The translations under genes and the position numbers were made by a program. Under the pieces are notes generated by a model that was given only the letters and a program-made list of their open reading frames with translations, was not told the DNA's origin and searched no databases. A DNA stretch of 64,000 bases from an uncultured Gemmatimonadota bacterium (GTDB lineage Bacteria; Gemmatimonadota; Gemmatimonadetes; Gemmatimonadales; Gemmatimonadaceae), in NCBI GenBank assembly GCA_903882745.1, contig CAIRYG010000007.1, forward strand, positions 62,001-126,000, in the 5' to 3' direction. Below are positions 1,455 through 43,793 of the stretch, one piece after another. The stretch's first letter is position 1, and each line of letters begins with the position of its first letter.

Positions 1455-1825
1455 GTTCTTTCGGTCCTTAGGAAAAGATTGGGTGGTGATTGTGGTGATG
1501 CTACTGCCAGTGGGTGGAGCAAGGATGAGACCAGAAAAACGGGCCAAATTGACGCTCGACGCCTTTATATAGGGCAGGGATGGCGCCAAAATGGCACGCC
1601 GGAGGTAGCGCGGGTGGACGGGGCAGGTGGGAGGGGCAGGTGGTGGGCGGGTGGTGGGCTGGTGGTGGCAGGTCGGGGGCAGGCGGGGGGCGGCCCCGTA
1701 ACAATCGCGCCACAAGGGATAACGAGAGTGTGCCCAGTGTTTGCTGGCGTTCGCGCGGCTGTCTAGATTTGAGGCATACTCTGAGTACTTCTCCCTCTGT
1801 CAGTTCTGCCCCGGAGCTCTCCCCC
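1455..1825. other. Divergent intergenic region between dnaK and the DUF47 gene
   Basis: A 371-bp non-coding gap from which dnaK (-) and the phosphate block (+) diverge. It holds a G-rich repeat array (listed separately) and, at 1566-1574 on the minus strand, CCCTATATA. This differs at one base from the sigma-32 type -10 CCCCATNTA, but I could not find a matching -35, so a heat-shock promoter for dnaK is only a possibility. An open frame runs through part of the region into the DUF47 gene from 1580. Its predicted N-terminus is low-complexity Gly/Arg/Trp and is not credible protein. Confidence 0.5.
1620..1694 (+). repeat. G-rich GGCAGG/GGTGG repeat array
   Basis: Two exact copies of GGGGCAGGTGG start at 1620 and 1633 (13-nt period). 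Degenerate units with GGGTGG, TGGTGG, TGGCAGG and GGGGCAGGCGG follow up to about 1694. The strand is almost free of T and C runs and has many GGG tracts, so it could form a G-quadruplex. A related array with the same 13-nt spacing lies at 53986-54037 in another divergent intergenic region. Confidence 0.7.
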
Positions 1826-2437
1826 GTGCGGCTTATTCCGAAAGACGAAGGATTTTTCGAACTGTTTGACGGCCTCGCGGTTCTCATGACGCGTTCGGCT
1901 ACCCTCCTGAATCAACTCTTCACGGATCCGGGGCAGCTCGATCGATACGTGGTGCAGATCAAAGAAATCGAGCACCAGGCCGACGACATCACGCACGAAA
2001 TCATGAACCGCATCGACCGGAGCTTTGTCACGCCGCTCGATCGCGAGGACATCCACCTGCTCGCGACGCGGCTGGACAACGTGGTGGATCTCATGGACGG
2101 CACCGCGCGCCGCGCCAAGATGTTCCACATCACGGACCGCAAGGAGCCGGCCAAGGAGCTCTCGCGCGTGCTCGTCGCCGCGACCGAGCAGATCGCCCTG
2201 GCCGTCACATCGCTCAAGGATGCGCGCCAGGTGCAAGTCATTGGCCGCGAGATGAAGCGCCTTGAGGAAGAGGCCGATGCGATTTATAGCGCCGCGGTGG
2301 GTGCGCTCTTCGAAGGCACGCCAGACGCGCTCGACGTCATCAAGTGGAAAGAACTCTATGACAACATCGAGCACGCCATCGACGAAGCGGAAGATGTGCT
2401 GAACGTGCTCGAGAGCGTCTCCCTCAAGAACAGCTGA
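1826..2437 (+). CDS. PhoU-like DUF47 family protein (phosphate transport accessory)
   Basis: A 203-residue all-helical protein of the DUF47/PhoU-like family (Pit accessory protein). Family members are usually encoded directly before PiT phosphate transporters and are thought to control them. The GTG start at 1826 is chosen because family proteins begin near RLIPKDEGFFELF and because GGAG lies 9 nt upstream. The longer open frame from 1580 adds 82 low-complexity residues. Helical motifs typical of the family include HQADDITHEIM near residue 50 and PLDREDIHLLATRLDNVVD near 70. The PiT gene begins 4 nt after the stop, so the two are almost certainly co-transcribed. Regulation of phosphate uptake is inferred from this pairing. 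Confidence 0.9.
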   Translation: MRLIPKDEGFFELFDGLAVLMTRSATLLNQLFTDPGQLDRYVVQIKEIEHQADDITHEIMNRIDRSFVTPLDREDIHLLATRLDNVVDLMDGTARRAKMFHITDRKEPAKELSRVLVAATEQIALAVTSLKDARQVQVIGREMKRLEEEADAIYSAAVGALFEGTPDALDVIKWKELYDNIEHAIDEAEDVLNVLESVSLKNS

Positions 2438-2441
2438 ACAC

Positions 2442-3479
2442 GTGCTTACGTACGTCGTCGTCATCGTCGTCATCGCTGTCGGGTTCGATTTCATCAACGG
2501 GTTTCACGACTCGGCGAACTCCATCGCCACGATTGTTGGGACGCGGGTTCTCAGTCCCCTGGCGGCCGTCCTGTGGGCCGCGACGTTTAACTTCGTGGCG
2601 GCATTCGTCGGCAACACCGCGGTCGCCAAAGCCGTCAGTGGCGGCTTTGTGGATCAGCACATCGTCGACGCGAATGTCATCTGTGCGGCGCTCGTCGGCG
2701 CAATCATCTGGAATCTGTTTACTTGGTTCTACGGCATTCCGTCGAGTTCGAGCCACGCGCTCATTGGCGGGTTCGCTGGTGCAGCGATCGCGAAGGGTGG
2801 TTTCGCCGCGCTGACGTGGGGCACCAAGTGGATCCAAACGTTGTCGTTCATCGTCATCTCGCCGACGCTTGGCATGCTGGTCGGGTTCCTGTTGATGGCG
2901 CTGGTGCTGAATCTCTTTCAGAAGGCGTCGCCGCGTCGCGTGGACAAAGTGTTCCGCCCGGGACAACTCGCCAGCTCGGCCCTGTTGTCATTCGCCCATG
3001 GTCAAAACGACGCGCAAAAGACGATGGGAATTATCGTCGGACTGCTCGTGGCGACCCAAGGGTACTTCGTCAACGAGACGGGTTTCTGGCACCATTTCTA
3101 TCTCGCCGATAACAAGCAGGTGCCCTGGTGGGTGGAGATGGCGGCGTACACGGCCATCTCGCTCGGCACCCTCTTCGGGGGGTGGCGCATTGTGCGCACC
3201 ATGGGCTCGCGCATCACGCGATTGCGCCCCGTGGGCGGTTTTGCCGCTGAGGGTGGTGGTGCGTTGGTGATTCTCGCGGCGACCAAGTTTGGTATTCCCG
3301 TCAGCACGACGCACACCATCACCGGCTCGATTGTCGGCGTTGGCGCTACGAACCGCCTCTCGGCGGTACGGTGGGGACTCGCGAGCCGCATCGTGTGGGC
3401 CTGGGTTGTGACGATTCCCGCCGCCGGTGCGATGGCCGCCATCGGGTACCTCCTGCTCTCCACGGCCATCAAGATCTAG
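2442..3479 (+). CDS. pit: PiT family inorganic phosphate transporter
   Basis: A 345-residue inner-membrane symporter for inorganic phosphate (low-affinity, PiT family). The two signature repeats are visible: NGFHDSANSIAT at about residues 19-30 and FAHGQNDAQKTMGI at about 184-197. The latter carries the NDAQ form of the PiT signature. Around ten hydrophobic segments are present, and a GIPVSTTHTITGSIVG stretch near residue 285 matches the second-half family motif. The start is GTG, 4 nt after the DUF47 stop, and ppk1 begins 4 nt after this gene. The DUF47-pit-ppk1 order links uptake directly to polyphosphate synthesis. Confidence 0.95.
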   Translation: MLTYVVVIVVIAVGFDFINGFHDSANSIATIVGTRVLSPLAAVLWAATFNFVAAFVGNTAVAKAVSGGFVDQHIVDANVICAALVGAIIWNLFTWFYGIPSSSSHALIGGFAGAAIAKGGFAALTWGTKWIQTLSFIVISPTLGMLVGFLLMALVLNLFQKASPRRVDKVFRPGQLASSALLSFAHGQNDAQKTMGIIVGLLVATQGYFVNETGFWHHFYLADNKQVPWWVEMAAYTAISLGTLFGGWRIVRTMGSRITRLRPVGGFAAEGGGALVILAATKFGIPVSTTHTITGSIVGVGATNRLSAVRWGLASRIVWAWVVTIPAAGAMAAIGYLLLSTAIKI

Positions 3480-3482
3480 GTT

Positions 3483-5630
3483 GTGACGCACACGCATCGG
3501 GATCCGGCCTTGTTCATCAACCGGGAACTGTCTTGGCTTGAGTTCAACGCTCGGGTGCTCGCGGAAGCGTATGACGAACGAAATCCGCTGCTGGAGCGGC
3601 TGAAGTTTCTCGCCATTTTCCACAGCAATCTCGACGAGTTCTACATGGTGCGCGTCGCGGGACTCCGCCGGCAAATGTCGGCGCGCGTGCCCCACGTGAG
3701 CGGTGATGGCTTGAGCGCGCGGCAGCAACTCGACGCCATCGATCGGCGCGTGCACGACCTGACGGACGTGGTGCAGCACTGCTTGCACGAGGTCTTGTTG
3801 CCGGCGCTTGAAACACATGGCGTTCGCGTGGTCTCCATGGACGAACTGAGCGAGACCGAGCGGTCGGCGATCGATGCGTTCTTCGATCAGCAGCTCTTCC
3901 CCGTGCTCACGCCGCTCGCCGTCGATCCCGGACATCCGTTCCCGTACATCTCGAACCTGTCGGTGTCACTCGCCGTGCGGCTCCGCCATCCGGAGCTGGG
4001 CGACGAACGCTTCGCGCGGGTCAAGGTTCCGAAATCGCTGTCGCGCTGGGTGCCGGTCCCCGGCCGCCGGCATCAGTATGTGCCGCTCGAGGACGTGATT
4101 GGCGCCCATCTGACGCGGTTGTTCCCCGGAATGCAGATCCTAGGGTCGCATGCGTTCCGAATTACGCGCCACAGCGATCTCGAGATTGCGAACAACGAAG
4201 AAGCCGAAGACTTGCTCGCTACGATCGAGGAACAGGTGTTCCAACGGCGATTCGGCGAAGTGGTGCGATTGGAAGTCCAGGCCGGCATGCCGCAAGCATT
4301 GCTGCAGTTGCTCCTGAACGAGTTGCGTGAAAGCGAGGATCCCGAGTTTGAGCCGCTGACAGAGCGCGAGGTGCAGCGGAGTGGGCCCTTGCTCGACTTG
4401 GCCGATCCGATGACGCTCGCCGCCATCGACATTCCTGAGTTACACGATGCGCCGTTCACCCCGGTCATCCCCGCGGAACTGCGAGAGGCTGAGCAGTCGA
4501 TCTTTGACGTGGTGCGCGCCCGCGACCTGCTGGTGCATCACCCGTTTGACTCCTTCACGACGACGGTCGAACAGTTCATCGCCGCTGCCGCCAAGGATGA
4601 CCGGACGCTCGCCATCAAGATGACGCTGTACCGCACCTCTGGCGACGGGGCAATCGTCCGCGCATTGATCGATGCGGCACAGCGCGGCATTCAGGTCGCC
4701 GTGCTCGTCGAGTTGCAGGCGCGATTCGACGAAACCAACAACATCACCTGGGCGCGTACGCTCGAGTCCTACGGCGTGCATGTGGCCTATGGTCTGCCAG
4801 GTCTCAAGATCCACGCAAAAACGGCGCTGGTCGTCCGCCGAGAGGTCGACGGCATTCGACGGTATGTGCACCTCGGAACGGGCAACTACAACGGAAAAAC
4901 GGCGCGCACCTACACCGATATCGGGCTCTTCACGTGCAGTGAAGCGATCGGCGCCGACGTCAGCGATCTGTTCAACTCGCTGACGGGGTTCTCGCGGCAA
5001 CTCGTATATCGCAAACTCGCCGTCGCCCCAGGTGGGTTGCGTGACCGCGTGCTCGGCATGATTCAGCGGGAGGCGGAGCACGCGCGTGCAGGCCGCCCGG
5101 CGCGCATCATCGCCAAAATGAATGCGCTCGTGGACTCTGAAACGATTCTGGCGCTCTACGAAGCATCAAAGGTAGGCGTTGAGATCGATCTGATTGTGCG
5201 CGGTATCTGCTGCCTCCGCCCCGGACTTCCTGGCGTGAGCGATCATATTCGCGTCATCAGCATTGTCGGGCGCTTTCTTGAGCACTCGCGTCTCTGGTTC
5301 TTCGAGAACTACGGAACGCAGGAGTACTGGATCAGCTCCGCCGACTGGATGCCTCGCAACTTTGACCGGCGCGTTGAAGCGGCAACCCCGATCGAGGATC
5401 CCGCGCTACATCCACGGCTCAAGTCCCTGTTGGATGCGTGTTTGCACGACACCCAGCAAACGTGGGAACTCAGCGCCGAGGGGGCGTACGCAAAACGCCA
5501 CGCAAAGTCGGACCCGGCGAGTTCGATTCACGCGCACCTCGTGCTGGAGTCGTGGGGGCAGCAGGGCAAGCCGTCGCTACAGCACCGAGTGTCGGGCGCT
5601 CAGGAGCGCGCGAGGCCGCTCTTCGGTTGA
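3483..5630 (+). CDS. ppk1: Polyphosphate kinase Ppk1
   Basis: A 715-residue membrane-associated enzyme that transfers the gamma-phosphate of ATP onto a growing polyphosphate chain. The N-terminal motif FINRELSWLEFNARVL is at residues 11-26. The two conserved histidines of the family are H444 in LKIHAKTALV and H601 in FLEHSRLWFFEN. Both are offset by +9 from the E. coli H435 (autophosphorylated) and H592, so the catalytic core looks intact. The HHPFDSF motif lies near 346. The start is GTG, 4 nt after the pit stop. Third gene of the phosphate uptake and storage operon; it converges with the phosphatase gene at 5673. Length is normal for the family. Confidence 0.98.
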   Translation: MTHTHRDPALFINRELSWLEFNARVLAEAYDERNPLLERLKFLAIFHSNLDEFYMVRVAGLRRQMSARVPHVSGDGLSARQQLDAIDRRVHDLTDVVQHCLHEVLLPALETHGVRVVSMDELSETERSAIDAFFDQQLFPVLTPLAVDPGHPFPYISNLSVSLAVRLRHPELGDERFARVKVPKSLSRWVPVPGRRHQYVPLEDVIGAHLTRLFPGMQILGSHAFRITRHSDLEIANNEEAEDLLATIEEQVFQRRFGEVVRLEVQAGMPQALLQLLLNELRESEDPEFEPLTEREVQRSGPLLDLADPMTLAAIDIPELHDAPFTPVIPAELREAEQSIFDVVRARDLLVHHPFDSFTTTVEQFIAAAAKDDRTLAIKMTLYRTSGDGAIVRALIDAAQRGIQVAVLVELQARFDETNNITWARTLESYGVHVAYGLPGLKIHAKTALVVRREVDGIRRYVHLGTGNYNGKTARTYTDIGLFTCSEAIGADVSDLFNSLTGFSRQLVYRKLAVAPGGLRDRVLGMIQREAEHARAGRPARIIAKMNALVDSETILALYEASKVGVEIDLIVRGICCLRPGLPGVSDHIRVISIVGRFLEHSRLWFFENYGTQEYWISSADWMPRNFDRRVEAATPIEDPALHPRLKSLLDACLHDTQQTWELSAEGAYAKRHAKSDPASSIHAHLVLESWGQQGKPSLQHRVSGAQERARPLFG

Positions 5631-5672
5631 TTCTGGACGACGGTCGCAACGCGGCCCGTCGGACGAACAGCG

Positions 5673-7316
5673 TTACTCGACCGTTTCCGCCATCGTCGCG
5701 TCCTGCACGACACGTCCGTCCGGGCCCACGATCTCCACGGGCACCCCAATCAGCTCCGCGAGTAGCCCGCTCTTCCGCGCAGCGCCCCACAGCTCGAGCC
5801 GGAGTGCCTTGGCGCGCGGAGTCGCGACCGGCGTGATACGTAGCGCGCGTTCCATCCAGCGCACCTTGATCCGCTCCACCGCCCCCACATGCCCGCGGTC
5901 GAGCCCATCGGCAATGCGGAGCAGTGCCGACAAGCGTTTGATGCGCGCGCGCGTCCCTTTCTGGAGCGCTGCATACTCCTGATGCTTCTGCCGGTCGGGC
6001 GGTGAGCCGCGGTGGTATCGCGCCACGTGGGCCACCACCACCTTCTCCGTCGGTGACATGCCCAGCAACTCCGCGTGCAGAATCAGATGGTATGAATGCT
6101 TGTTGTGCTTCTGGTAGTTGATGTGGTACCCCACATCGTGCAGCAGCGCGGCATCCGACAAAATCTGTCGATCCGCAGCTTCGCAGCCGAGTCGCATGCC
6201 GACGGCATCAAAGAGCTGGAGCGCGATTTTCTGCACCTGCCGAGAGTGTGGCTCCTCGTAGTGGCAGCGTTCGGCAAACTCCCGTACCGATCGGGCGCGT
6301 GCTTCGCCCGGGTCGGCGATGCTGGGCTTGATCCGCGCAACGTCGAGGAGCAAGCCTTCGCGAATGCCGTACGCGCTCGCGCCAATCTCGCGGGGCTCAA
6401 CACGGGCCAGAACTTCGGCGGCAACTGCGAGGCCGGCAACAATGATGTCGGCGCGGCCGGCATTGAGCCCTGGGACGGCCAGTCGCTCCTCAACCGACAT
6501 CTCCGCCAGCATATCCAGAATGTGCTCCACCTCGGCGCGCGGAATCCGGGTGCCGTGGACGGAGCGTGCCGCGCGCATCCCGTGCCGCGCTAGGAAAATG
6601 CCGGCGAGATTGGTGAATGTTCCGCCGGAGCCAATGACCTCGGCGCCGCGCCAATCGCGCACGGGGAGCGCGGCGCGGATGTCGTCGCGGATGTGCTTGC
6701 GGAGCTTCTTGATGCCCTTGTGTGAACTTCCCTTCGAGAGGAACCGTTCGGTCAATCGCAGGGCGCCAAAGGGCAGTGATACCAGGTGCTCAACCAGCCC
6801 TTCGGCTGCGAGGGCCAGTTCCAGCGAGCCACCGCCGATGTCCATCACCACGCAGCGTCCGTGGCCGAGTTCGAAATGGGCGAGCGCCGAGCGGTAGGCC
6901 AGTCTTGCTTCTTCGGCGCCGTCGAGCAGGCGGATCTTGAGCCCCGTTTGCTGGCGGACGCGGGTGAGGAAGAGCGCGCCGTTCGAGGCGTCGCGTACCG
7001 CACTCGTGGCCACGGCCTCGACGCGTTTGGCGCCCAGCTGGCGGGCGAGCGTGGCCATCCGTTGCAGCGACTCGATGGCAAGATTCATTGGCCCTTCACT
7101 CAGGGCACCCGTCTCGGAGAGTCCCGCGCCCAGTCGCGGCGCCGCCTTCATTTCGTCGACCACACGAATGGACCCGTTCTTCCCGACATCGGCCACAATC
7201 TGTCGAATCGAGTTGGACCCGATGTCGATGGCGGCGATTCGCTGTTCCCCTTCCTCGCCTTGCGGGCGATATGGGCCTTCGGTAGCGGCGAGGCGGAGGG
7301 GAGGCAACGTGCTCAT
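5673..7316 (-). CDS. ppx: Ppx/GppA family exopolyphosphatase with C-terminal HD domain
   Basis: About 547 residues from the ATG at 7316; a TTG 39 nt upstream is an alternative start. The N-terminal actin-fold half carries AIDIGSNSIRQIVADVG at about 29-45 and DIGGGSLELALA at 159-170, the phosphate-binding loops of the Ppx/GppA family. The C-terminal half is HD-like, with LLHDVGYHINYQKHNKHSYH near 390. Predicted to release phosphate from polyphosphate and/or hydrolyse pppGpp; the sequence alone does not separate the two. The pstS-like fragment stops 1 nt before this ATG (TGATATG), so this gene probably once followed pstS in an operon reading from phoB-phoR. It is the degrading counterpart of the adjacent ppk1. 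Confidence 0.92.
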   Translation of the reverse strand: MSTLPPLRLAATEGPYRPQGEEGEQRIAAIDIGSNSIRQIVADVGKNGSIRVVDEMKAAPRLGAGLSETGALSEGPMNLAIESLQRMATLARQLGAKRVEAVATSAVRDASNGALFLTRVRQQTGLKIRLLDGAEEARLAYRSALAHFELGHGRCVVMDIGGGSLELALAAEGLVEHLVSLPFGALRLTERFLSKGSSHKGIKKLRKHIRDDIRAALPVRDWRGAEVIGSGGTFTNLAGIFLARHGMRAARSVHGTRIPRAEVEHILDMLAEMSVEERLAVPGLNAGRADIIVAGLAVAAEVLARVEPREIGASAYGIREGLLLDVARIKPSIADPGEARARSVREFAERCHYEEPHSRQVQKIALQLFDAVGMRLGCEAADRQILSDAALLHDVGYHINYQKHNKHSYHLILHAELLGMSPTEKVVVAHVARYHRGSPPDRQKHQEYAALQKGTRARIKRLSALLRIADGLDRGHVGAVERIKVRWMERALRITPVATPRAKALRLELWGAARKSGLLAELIGVPVEIVGPDGRVVQDATMAETVE

Positions 7317-7317
7317 A

Positions 7318-7520
7318 TCACGGGGAAGGAGCTTTGGGACAGGCGCCGGTCGCAATCGTGCCGACCAGTGAATCGTAGTGGGTGATAGTCTCGCGCGGGA
7401 GCGGCACGTACTCTAAGGCCCCCGCGTCGCCCGTGCCGTCGGTGAGCGCCCAGTGCAGAAAGGCCACGGTGCGGTCGCGACGAAGAGAACGATCAGAATG
7501 GAGCGAAGCGAGAGGCGCAT
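7318..7520 (-). pseudogene. pstS: pstS remnant: signal peptide joined out of frame to PstS C-terminus
   Basis: Between phoR and ppx, reading on the minus strand, an ATG at 7520 encodes a signal-peptide-like MRLSLRSILIVLFVATA. In another frame the last ~48 codons before the TGA at 7318 encode FLHWALTDGTGDAGALEYV and PLPRETITHYDSLVGTIA. These look like the C-terminal end of the periplasmic phosphate-binding protein PstS (FLxWALTDG...YxPLP). The roughly 280 residues expected in between are missing and the two parts are out of frame around 7471-7485. I read this as an internal deletion of pstS. A collapsed assembly could give the same picture. Neither pstC, pstA nor pstB is in the window. Confidence 0.7.
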
Positions 7521-7598
7521 GGCCAGTTGGGTTCGGGAGTGCGGTACGTCGCGCAGCGAATGCGCGCCGGAACTGCAGACCGAAAGCTCCCACCGCCT

Positions 7599-7626
7599 AG
7601 TATCGGCGCTATTTCGATTGTGTCAC
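7599..7626 (-). promoter_or_regulatory. Candidate promoter / Pho-box-like element before pstS remnant
   Basis: On the minus strand GTGACA (7621-7626) and GATACT (7599-7604) are separated by 16 bp, a weak sigma-70 type pair. The -35 overlaps TGTC-CGT-GACA, with arms at 7621-7631, next to CCTGTC, which recalls the CTGTCA half-sites of Pho boxes. This lies about 80 nt upstream of the remnant's ATG. The match to a Pho box is partial, so this is only a candidate. Confidence 0.3.
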
Positions 7627-7664
7627 GGACAGGTAACGGCCAGAGGGGATTTCGGGCGTCCCGG

Positions 7665-9386
7665 TTACCCTCGGGAGGGCGAACTGGCCGGAAAATTCGC
7701 CATAATCGTCGTTCCAGCCCCTGGCACGCTCTCGGCTTTGACCTTGCCGCCGTGTGCCTCGACTAAGTGCTTCACGATGGCCAGCCCGAGTCCCGTGCCC
7801 CCCTCGGCGCGCGAACGCCCTGGATCAACCCTATAGAACCGCTCGAAGATGCGCGGCAGATGCTCGGCTGGGATCCCCACGCCGGTGTCGCGCACCCCAA
7901 CCGTGACCCCGCCGTCCTCCGAACGCGGTCGCGAAAAAATGACCACGGCACCCGTCGCGGTGTGCCGGACGGCATTGTCCACCAGGTTTCCGATGACTTG
8001 CCGGAGGGCCGTCGCGTCGGCAAACAGCACGGCCGACTCGGGGTGGATATCGACCGACAGGGTGAGGCCCTTGGCGTCCGCGGCATCACGGGCCGCCGAA
8101 ATGGTATCGGACGCCACGGAGAGCAGGTCGAGCGTCATTGGATTGGGCACCCAGCCGCCACTCTCGATGCGCGAGAGGTCGAGCAAGTCGTCGACAATGC
8201 GCTGCATCCGGCGAGTATTGCCCAGAATCCGGTCGGCAAACTGCCGGCGGCTGTCGGCCGGCGGGTCGTCTTGCACAAGGGTTTCCGCAAATCCGCCAAC
8301 GATGGTGAGGGGGGTGCGGAGCTCATGCGACACGTTGGCTACGAAGTCGCGTCGTACGGCTTCGAGGCGGCGCACGCGGGTCAGATCGAGCAGCGCAAGC
8401 ACCGCGCCGCCTCCTGCGAGGGGGCGCGCGGTCACGTTGAGGGTGCGGCCACCGATCACCAGCTCGGCGTCGTCGGTGGTGTCGCCTGCGGTCGCACTCG
8501 CCAGCGCGTCGCGAAGCACGGTGGCTCGGGGCAAGACGTCCGAATGGAACGGCAGGGCGTCGCGCGTGTTCAGGAGGCGCCGCGCAGTCTCGTTGATGCG
8601 TACCACCATAGCAGACGTGTCGACAGCTAAAACGCCCTCGTTGAGCGATTCTGTGAGCTGTAGCAGCAGCGACTCATCGGCTTGCAGCGCTGCGAGCCTC
8701 GCGGAGAGCTGTTCGGCGAGTTGGTCCAAGGCGACGGCGAGATCTCCCACCTCGCCTGGGGCATGAATTTTTGGCCGCCGCGTGAGATCTCCCGCGGCGA
8801 GCGCGCGGGCCACGTCGCGCAGTTCCACGACCGGCTGCGACACCGACCGTGAAAAGAGCCAGGCGAGTACCAGCGCGCCCAACAGAGCCACAGCACCGGC
8901 CGATGCGGCATCGCGTCCCGCGGCCGCCACAATCGCGTCGAGGGTCCCGGTTGGCACCGACACACGGGCCACGCCAAGGGACGCGCGCACGGCGACGTAG
9001 AGTTCGACGTCACCCCGCGAGGCGCTGGGGCGCACGGCTAATCCAACCGCGCCGCTGACCGCCGAGGCCACTTCGGGGCGGGTGAGATGGTTTTCAAGCC
9101 GAGCCAGCGCGTCCTCCTCAAAGTCGGTATCGCCGAGCACGACGCCGTCCTCGCGAATGAGCGTCACGCGGCGTCCGAGGGCAACGCCGGCCGTGTGTGC
9201 CAGCACCGACGGATTCGTCGTTGGGGTCCACTCCGTCGCGACAAATCGTGCTTCGCGCGCCAGGTTCTTCGTGGTTTCGTCGCGCAGCCGTTCGCTGAGC
9301 TGGCGGTTCACCACCACCACAATTGTGACGACGAGGAAGCCGACGACGGCGACGGCCCCGAGGACCAGGCGTTGGGTAAGCTTCAC
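7665..9386 (-). CDS. phoR: Phosphate regulon sensor histidine kinase PhoR
   Basis: A 573-residue membrane sensor kinase. The GTG at 9386 overlaps the phoB stop (GTGA); upstream codons in frame belong to phoB DNA. Order of parts: TM1 at about residues 6-27, a periplasmic segment of about 110 residues, TM2 near 150-170, a HAMP linker, a PAS domain near 225-330, then HisKA with VSHELRTPLTIVGG and the phospho-accepting His at about 354. The ATPase domain carries NLVDNAVRHT, DTGVGIP and GTGLGLAIVKHLVEAHGG. The larger periplasmic domain and the PAS domain fit the PhoR type. The pairing with phoB, udk upstream and the phosphate genes around it supports control of the Pho response. Confidence 0.93.
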   Translation of the reverse strand: MKLTQRLVLGAVAVVGFLVVTIVVVVNRQLSERLRDETTKNLAREARFVATEWTPTTNPSVLAHTAGVALGRRVTLIREDGVVLGDTDFEEDALARLENHLTRPEVASAVSGAVGLAVRPSASRGDVELYVAVRASLGVARVSVPTGTLDAIVAAAGRDAASAGAVALLGALVLAWLFSRSVSQPVVELRDVARALAAGDLTRRPKIHAPGEVGDLAVALDQLAEQLSARLAALQADESLLLQLTESLNEGVLAVDTSAMVVRINETARRLLNTRDALPFHSDVLPRATVLRDALASATAGDTTDDAELVIGGRTLNVTARPLAGGGAVLALLDLTRVRRLEAVRRDFVANVSHELRTPLTIVGGFAETLVQDDPPADSRRQFADRILGNTRRMQRIVDDLLDLSRIESGGWVPNPMTLDLLSVASDTISAARDAADAKGLTLSVDIHPESAVLFADATALRQVIGNLVDNAVRHTATGAVVIFSRPRSEDGGVTVGVRDTGVGIPAEHLPRIFERFYRVDPGRSRAEGGTGLGLAIVKHLVEAHGGKVKAESVPGAGTTIMANFPASSPSRG

Positions 9387-10105
9387 GCGTCCTTGCCGTG
9401 GGCTGCTTTCATGCGGTAGCCGAAGCCGCGGACGGTCTCGATCAGGTCGCCGGAGGGGCCGAGCTTGGAGCGGAGTCGGAGCACGTGCATGTCGACTGTT
9501 CGCGTCTGGATGTCCGGGGCGGCGTCCCACACCTTCTCGAGGAGGTGCGCCCGGGCCTGTGTGCGTCCACGCCGCTCGGCGAGGGTCAGCAGCAACTTGT
9601 ACTCCGTGGCGGTCAGTTCTACCGGGTCGCCCTTCACCGTGACACTGTTCGCGGCGCGATCGATGACGATGTCGTCAATGGTCAGGACATCGGCCGTCGA
9701 GGCGGGCGCCGAGACACGGCGGAGAATCGCAGCCACGCGCAACACCATTTCCTGCGGGCTGAAGGGCTTGGTGAGATAGTCGTCAGCGCCGAGGGAGAGC
9801 CCGCGGATCCGGTCTTGTTCTTCCTTGCGGGCCGTCAGCATGAGCACGGCGGTATGGCGTGTGGCCTCGTTGGCGCGCAGTTGTTCCAACACCTCGAATC
9901 CCGACATGCCCGGGAGCATGAGGTCGAGCACGATGAGCGCCGGGCGCTCCCGCTTGGCGAGTGCCAAGGCGTCGGGCCCGGAGCTGGCGGTGGAGACGCG
10001 GTATCCCGCTTTCGCCAAATGATAGACGACGAGCGCGACAATGTCCGGTTCGTCGTCCACAATGAGGACACGGTCGGTGGCGAATGGTACGGTCGGCGCT
10101 GTCAC
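9383..10105 (-). CDS. phoB: Phosphate regulon response regulator PhoB (OmpR family)
   Basis: A 240-residue DNA-binding response regulator. The receiver domain has the acidic pair in VLIVDDEPD (residues 13-21), the phosphorylated Asp at 61 in VLDLMLPG and the Lys at 113 in DDYLTKPF. A winged-helix domain follows, with LTATEYKLLLTLAERRG and TRTVDMHVLRLRSKLG. The stop overlaps the phoR start by 4 nt and the udk stop lies 7 nt upstream, giving an operon udk-phoB-phoR. PhoB is assigned from the kinase partner and the phosphate context. The receiver plus winged-helix architecture alone would also fit other OmpR regulators. Confidence 0.92.
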   Translation of the reverse strand: MTAPTVPFATDRVLIVDDEPDIVALVVYHLAKAGYRVSTASSGPDALALAKRERPALIVLDLMLPGMSGFEVLEQLRANEATRHTAVLMLTARKEEQDRIRGLSLGADDYLTKPFSPQEMVLRVAAILRRVSAPASTADVLTIDDIVIDRAANSVTVKGDPVELTATEYKLLLTLAERRGRTQARAHLLEKVWDAAPDIQTRTVDMHVLRLRSKLGPSGDLIETVRGFGYRMKAAHGKDA

Positions 10106-43606: not shown

Positions 43607-43793
43607 GCTATAGACGATGCCGCGTCAATGCGACGGGCGTGTGACGGTGGTGTTACGGTCGCGTCGCGCCCACGGCCCGGATTCGTGACCGGACTGGGAC
43701 CACTTCGTCCGAGAGGCGTCACCGAGGGCGGTGTTATTAAATGGCGAGCGGCGGGCACCGTGTGCGCCGTGAACTCCCCAAGGAGAACAGCCA
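43607..43793. other. Divergent intergenic region before the hydrolase-PAP2 genes
   Basis: A 187-bp gap between the GT4 gene (-) and the phosphodiesterase gene (+). An AGGAGA ribosome site at 43781-43786 serves the latter. I saw no clear promoter pair, palindrome or Pho-box-like repeat. Confidence 0.4.

Follow-up and report, generated by a model that had tools for sequence, protein, structure and literature searches.

What has happened between phoR and ppx in this uncultured member of the Gemmatimonadaceae, where, on the minus strand, the first part of one gene runs out of frame into the last part of another? The stretch of DNA analysed (hereafter the window) is 64,000 nucleotides long, and the original prediction saw in it a pstS gene deleted within an otherwise intact Pho block. 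As described below, a fairly recent deletion of ~6.4 kb between short direct repeats very probably left its scar here and took away a trio of Pho-linked genes. Gene loss as such is ordinary. The value of this scar is that it exposes a little-known Pho-linked module, made of an orphan PstS and a TonB-dependent system, of which the window genome is a natural "knock-out". The features concerned are as follows, in coordinates of the window.

1580..2437, plus strand: PhoU_div (DUF47) partner of Pit (PF01865, E 3e-20), with its reliable part from near 1690, matching G014 from residue 37
2442..3479, plus strand: pit (PHO4 family) low-affinity phosphate transporter (PF01384, E 7e-94)
3483..5630, plus strand: ppk1 polyphosphate kinase, with all four PP_kinase domains
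5673..7316, minus strand: ppx/gppA-type exopolyphosphatase (PF02541, 197.6 bits)
7318..7482, minus strand: 3′ remnant of pstS, the last ~54 codons and the stop, encoding RDRTVAFLHWALTDGTGDAGALEYVPLPRETITHYDSLVGTIATGACPKAPSP
7464..7520, minus strand: 5′ remnant of a TonB-dependent receptor (TBDR) gene, ATG at 7520, signal peptide MRLSLRSILIVLFVATAP
7466..7482, no strand assigned: probable deletion junction, a 17-bp block CGTCGCGACCGCACCGT (minus strand) in a single copy in the window
7622..7637, minus strand: Pho-box-like direct repeat GTTAC-N6-GTGAC, 11-bp-spaced, ~100 bp upstream of the former TBDR start
7665..9386, minus strand: phoR-type sensor kinase with HisKA, HATPase_c and HAMP (the listed open reading frame reaches 9530)
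9383..10105, minus strand: phoB-type response regulator with Response_reg and Trans_reg_C

From which genes do the two joined pieces come? The joined remnant is a 35-aa open reading frame at 7413-7520, in which the receptor start and the pstS end are out of frame with each other, and it lies between phoR and ppx; both the out-of-frame join and this position had been predicted correctly. The prediction of a PstS-like C-terminus also holds. The matches of the 3′ remnant among chains of solved structures (PDB) are four and all are PstS, so that no other family appears among them, and the piece shares 96% of its residues with positions 309-362 of the intact 362-aa PstS of G014, the nearest relative compared, whose locus is identical to that of JAPLKT010000039.1 (a Gemmatimonadetes MAG). 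Against TIGR00975, for which the cut-off is 205 bits, this G014 protein reaches 265 bits. With 54 codons left, the remnant is a C-terminal part of PstS and neither a complete phosphate-binding fold nor a functional gene. The other piece had been taken for a PstS-like signal peptide, and this part of the prediction was mistaken: 7464-7520 matches, at 79% identity over 19 residues, the beginning of the G014 TBDR, a protein of 938 aa (MRLSFRSILIVLLVAIAPFALHAQ). Its counterpart in G014 (MRLSFRSILIVLLVAIAP...) opens this receptor, which has CarboxypepD_reg, Plug and barrel domains, whereas the PstS of G014 begins with MRRPFSERVVTPVRAVLVLLVLLVLGLAACG, unlike the start piece in the window. A tblastn search with the joined remnant against plasmids gave no match, and the only Pfam match of the joined open reading frames, to PhyH, was judged to be due to chance. 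It is to be noted that local decay of pstS with no other gene lost, which would leave a PstS signal peptide and a PstS C-terminus in an otherwise intact Pho block, agrees with the identity of the C-terminus, but it is refuted by the alignment with G014, where the N-terminal piece matches the TBDR and not PstS; moreover, three genes are missing, and PstC and PhoU are absent. We consider this explanation to be practically dismissed.

What, then, has been lost? The phoR-ppx interval of G014 carries the TBDR, a lipoprotein of ~590 aa with FN3 and beta-helix-like parts, and a lipoprotein PstS (lipobox LAAC), and thus a full pstS, which the original prediction proposed to look for in related genomes, does exist at this locus. 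Compared with G014, the window misses 6,424 bp between phoR and ppx (G014 coordinates), corresponding to the rest of the TBDR gene, the lipoprotein gene and nearly all of pstS. The prediction of a deletion that removed PstS was therefore right, but pstS did not go alone; the TBDR and lipoprotein genes of its Pho-linked TonB module were taken with it. The two BLAST blocks between the window and G014 overlap by exactly 17 bases, CGTCGCGAYCGCNCCGT, and the best breakpoint is inside this 17-bp block. In G014 the deleted segment is flanked by two copies of the block, one among the signal-peptide codons of the TBDR gene and the other near the 3′ end of pstS, which form an imperfect direct repeat with 15 of 17 positions identical, while the window has one copy at the join. 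A single joined copy against two flanking copies in the intact locus is what a deletion between short direct repeats leaves behind, and such a deletion would proceed by short-homology recombination or replication slippage between the imperfect 17-bp repeats. A random pair of 17-mers reaches an identity of at least 14/17 with a p of about 1.4e-4; chance is excluded for the scar because the window and G014 align over kilobases on both sides, at about 85-89% DNA identity in the flanks, and the alignment is interrupted exactly at 7466-7482. The deletion is known from one genome, no second strain having been found.

Could the same junction be produced by an assembler? A collapse or chimera, which had been offered as an alternative from the start, means that the three genes are still present and that two short repeats were joined during assembly. 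The position of the junction exactly in the common 17-bp block would fit with this, as would the fact that most relatives with the locus are metagenome assemblies. On the other hand, an imperfect repeat of 17 bp is shorter than usual assembly k-mers, and with its mismatches it is not long enough to make an ordinary assembly graph collapse. The junction is on a 166-kb contig of a 3.06-Mb genome in 14 contigs, estimated to be 100% complete with 1.3% contamination. A collapse is unlikely because the missing 6.4 kb should then normally turn up on a different contig, and a search of the window genome for the deleted DNA, run without a positive control, found it on none of the 14. The genes themselves tell the same story. 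The window genome has no match to PF12849 or TIGR00975 for PstS, no PstC at E 1e-3, no PhoU and no lipoprotein of the module; its best PstB-like match scores 157.9 bits against a cut-off of 343.2, and it has no orthologue of the TBDR, the best match being 32% identical over a part of the protein. In a genome of 100% completeness, absence of PstS, PstC, the lipoprotein, a true PstB and PhoU indicates that the missing DNA is not misplaced. Assembly collapse is thus an improbable explanation, although a chimeric join or a mixture of strains in the assembly may still lie behind the junction. Another one is that the interval represents an ancestral state with a small open reading frame, or a functional gene for a short peptide, and no scar at all. 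Indeed, phoR directly adjoins ppx in G001, G005, G012 and G015, which belong to the same genus. However, the TBDR start and the pstS end are both present in the window, nearly identical to the intact genes of G014 and mutually out of frame, and we give this possibility next to no weight. A deletion between the short repeats is thus the reading followed here.

When did the deletion occur? The pstS remnant differs from G014 by two nonsynonymous and four synonymous changes in 53 codons, and its frame is open without stops. Its dS is 0.10, against 0.3-0.5 for most of the genes nearby. The deletion looks younger than the split from G014 because the remnant is so little decayed, and free drift should have brought many more nonsynonymous changes. 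Thus, the event is probably recent, as judged from 53 codons with a low dS which may also be under constraint: the pstS stop directly precedes the ATG of ppx, and the remnant may be constrained as a leader of ppx. The genes around the scar are well kept. The ppx product is 98.75% identical to that of G014 (dN/dS 0.02), and PhoR is 93% identical, with 160 synonymous and 33 nonsynonymous codon differences; this kinase scores high against the PnpS/PhoR models, yet below their cut-offs. The best NCBIfam model for the response regulator is PhoB (239.8 bits; cut-off 296.2), and its dN/dS is 0.09. From these codon comparisons with G014, PhoB and PhoR are still constrained. On the other side of ppx, ppk (window 3600-5700) is only 65-82% identical in DNA and 80.7% in protein to its G014 counterpart (dS 1.5), far less than its flanks (98.8% in protein for ppx and 94.8% for pit), and allelic replacement by recombination in one of the lineages is the likely cause of this divergence.

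Upstream of the former receptor gene, a Pho-box-like element had been predicted, and a direct repeat GTTAC-N6-GTGAC is indeed found there. The pattern matches twice in the 64-kb window, the other GTNAC-N6-GTNAC being at 43641. Among relatives, it is present upstream of the TBDR in 7 of 20 against 0.76 expected (P = 1.5e-5), or P = 1.0e-4 if the locus that suggested the pattern is excluded. We regard the repeat as a putative PhoB site. After the deletion it precedes only two gene scraps and ppx, and the former promoter of the receptor would now drive ppx alone.

Did the window genome lose its high-affinity phosphate transporter by this event? PstSCAB-PhoU is the textbook source of both the PhoR signal and high-affinity phosphate uptake. 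The order phoR-TBDR-lipoprotein-PstS-ppx is found in G003, G009, G011 and G014, and is common in Gemmatimonadaceae, for example at nine of the other loci compared. These four genomes all have PstS and possess neither PstC nor PhoU, and their PstB matches do not reach the cut-off (G011 being 61% complete). Because PstCAB-PhoU is absent there, the PstS was an orphan, with no ABC transporter to serve, before it was lost; since the relatives keeping PstS also lack PstCAB-PhoU, the deletion cost no PstSCAB transporter. The Pho block was hence not "otherwise intact": it has lost the TBDR and lipoprotein genes along with most of pstS, and nowhere in the genome is there a PstC, a PhoU or a true PstB. 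The proposed switch to low-affinity uptake stands in that Pit is the only recognised importer of inorganic phosphate (Pi) left in the window genome, but not in the sense that a PstSCAB system was given up. NptA (PF02690) was considered as a replacement transporter and rejected, its 21-bit match containing a stop and being below the cut-off.

How general is the orphan state? Across 18 members of the genus, PhoU is present where an over-cut-off PstC is present, and missing where PstC is missing. In 201 genomes sampled from the order, 21 have PstS without PstC, and the lipoprotein is found in 18 of these 21 against 49 of 130 genomes with both (Fisher P = 7e-5, uncorrected for relatedness). The module loci with a readable PstS are 19 in number, 12 without an adjacent PstC and seven with it. 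By reading of the N-termini, all 12 of the former PstS proteins are membrane-anchored, by lipoboxes in nine and by N-terminal anchors in three, while PstS linked to PstC has an ordinary cleavable signal in 8 of 18. The TBDR-lipoprotein pair is usually alongside the orphan PstS, both in the four close relatives and in further genomes of the order. At six loci the pair is followed by an interval of ~800 bp before ppx with no PstS of the G014 type, and this interval could encode a different small binding protein. We found no description of an orphan PstS paired with a TBDR in the literature searched, which is not a proof of absence. Nor did we find there a report of Pit-only genomes with pst loss. 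Within the genus, phosphate uptake by Pit alone may have evolved repeatedly. G012 (98% complete) has no PstS, over-cut-off PstC, PhoU or lipoprotein, and its module loss is apparently independent. At two loci assigned to G012 and at another one, L067, phoR adjoins ppx with no module.

What is the third component, the lipoprotein? It has no match in Pfam or NCBIfam. Its profile yields FN3 matches across positions ~30-125, and a structure model (mean pLDDT 76, mostly beta) gives weak matches to pectate lyases, which are beta-helix proteins, besides FN3; from this all-beta model and these weak matches, the remaining part is described here as beta-helix-like. In relatives, it is encoded next to a protein with TBDR domains, and the lipobox cysteine is present in the alignment. 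The G014-type lipoprotein is related to a protein on a Sphingomonas plasmid (29% identity over 47% of the length, E 7e-14), where the gene order is lipoprotein-TBDR-gsp genes.

It is tempting to ask what the trio did. From its neighbourhood and the literature, it would be an outer-membrane module for scavenging phosphorus under the control of PhoB, in which a membrane-anchored PstS would work without PstCAB and supply Pit with periplasmic phosphate. Deprived of the trio, the cell would rely on Pit with its DUF47 partner and on polyphosphate through Ppk1 and Ppx. Taken together, we tentatively propose, as a possibility that may well turn out wrong, that in many Gemmatimonadaceae a membrane-anchored PstS, a TBDR and an ElpS-like lipoprotein form a TonB-driven Pi uptake system which replaces PstSCAB and passes Pi to Pit, and that the window genome is a naturally occurring null mutant living on Pit alone, with PhoBR sensing without PstSCAB-PhoU. 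A similarly uncertain idea, which concerns function only and is compatible with the deletion, is that the deletion is real but neutral for uptake of phosphate ions, the module having handled organic phosphorus, a glycan or a metal. Organic phosphorus has been proposed as the target of TBDR-lipoprotein pairs in Flavobacterium (PMC8115612), and the weak pectate-lyase matches of the lipoprotein model point in the same direction. Against it, the third gene encodes a bona fide PstS, above the cut-off of TIGR00975, and the locus lies inside phoBR-ppx with the Pho-box-like repeat upstream. The window genome and its intact sisters make a matched pair in which to ask which signal PhoBR responds to when Pst is missing, and whether PstS has a function in the absence of an ABC transporter. 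In systems of the E. coli type, loss of PstS switches PhoR on; this lineage keeps PhoBR under purifying selection, yet has no PstCAB or PhoU. In Caulobacter, a pstS mutant is rescued by a heterologous Pit while PhoB stays active (PMC11208175).

To which known systems does the module compare? Like the PstS of PstSCAB-PhoU, the one lost here is a TIGR00975 member, but neither the window genome nor its four closest module-bearing relatives have PstC or PhoU. ElpS of Caulobacter crescentus (cc0170) is a surface lipoprotein encoded beside the TBDR cc0171 and made under phosphate starvation (PMC2996285). The likeness is a surface lipoprotein adjoining a TBDR, and the Sphingomonas relative stands in an ElpS-type gene order. 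Unlike in Caulobacter, the pair in Gemmatimonadaceae lies within the phoBR block with PstS and ppx behind it, T2SS genes are absent from the interval, the lipoproteins of this clade have an N-terminal FN3-like domain, and the module is deleted in the window genome. In Flavobacterium johnsoniae, PUSIV has the order phoBR-TBDT (Fjoh_0545)-lipoprotein FII (Fjoh_0546) and responds to Pi depletion with strong induction; PstSABC is described as lacking in plant-associated Bacteroidetes (PMC8115612). By arrangement and description, both have a TBDT and a beta-helix-like lipoprotein in a phoBR operon; the text consulted lists no PstS for PUSIV, whereas the Gemmatimonadaceae version adds PstS, with or without PstCAB. 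The plasmid pBGP9 of Alteromonas macleodii has PstS, a relative of the lipoprotein and a TBDR beside phoBR, and no PstCAB in the 17 kb examined. There the order is phoB-phoR-PstS-2OG oxygenase-lipoprotein relative-TBDR-ExbB/ExbD-TonB, and so this cluster differs from that of Gemmatimonadaceae in gene order, in having its own TonB/ExbBD and in being plasmid-borne.
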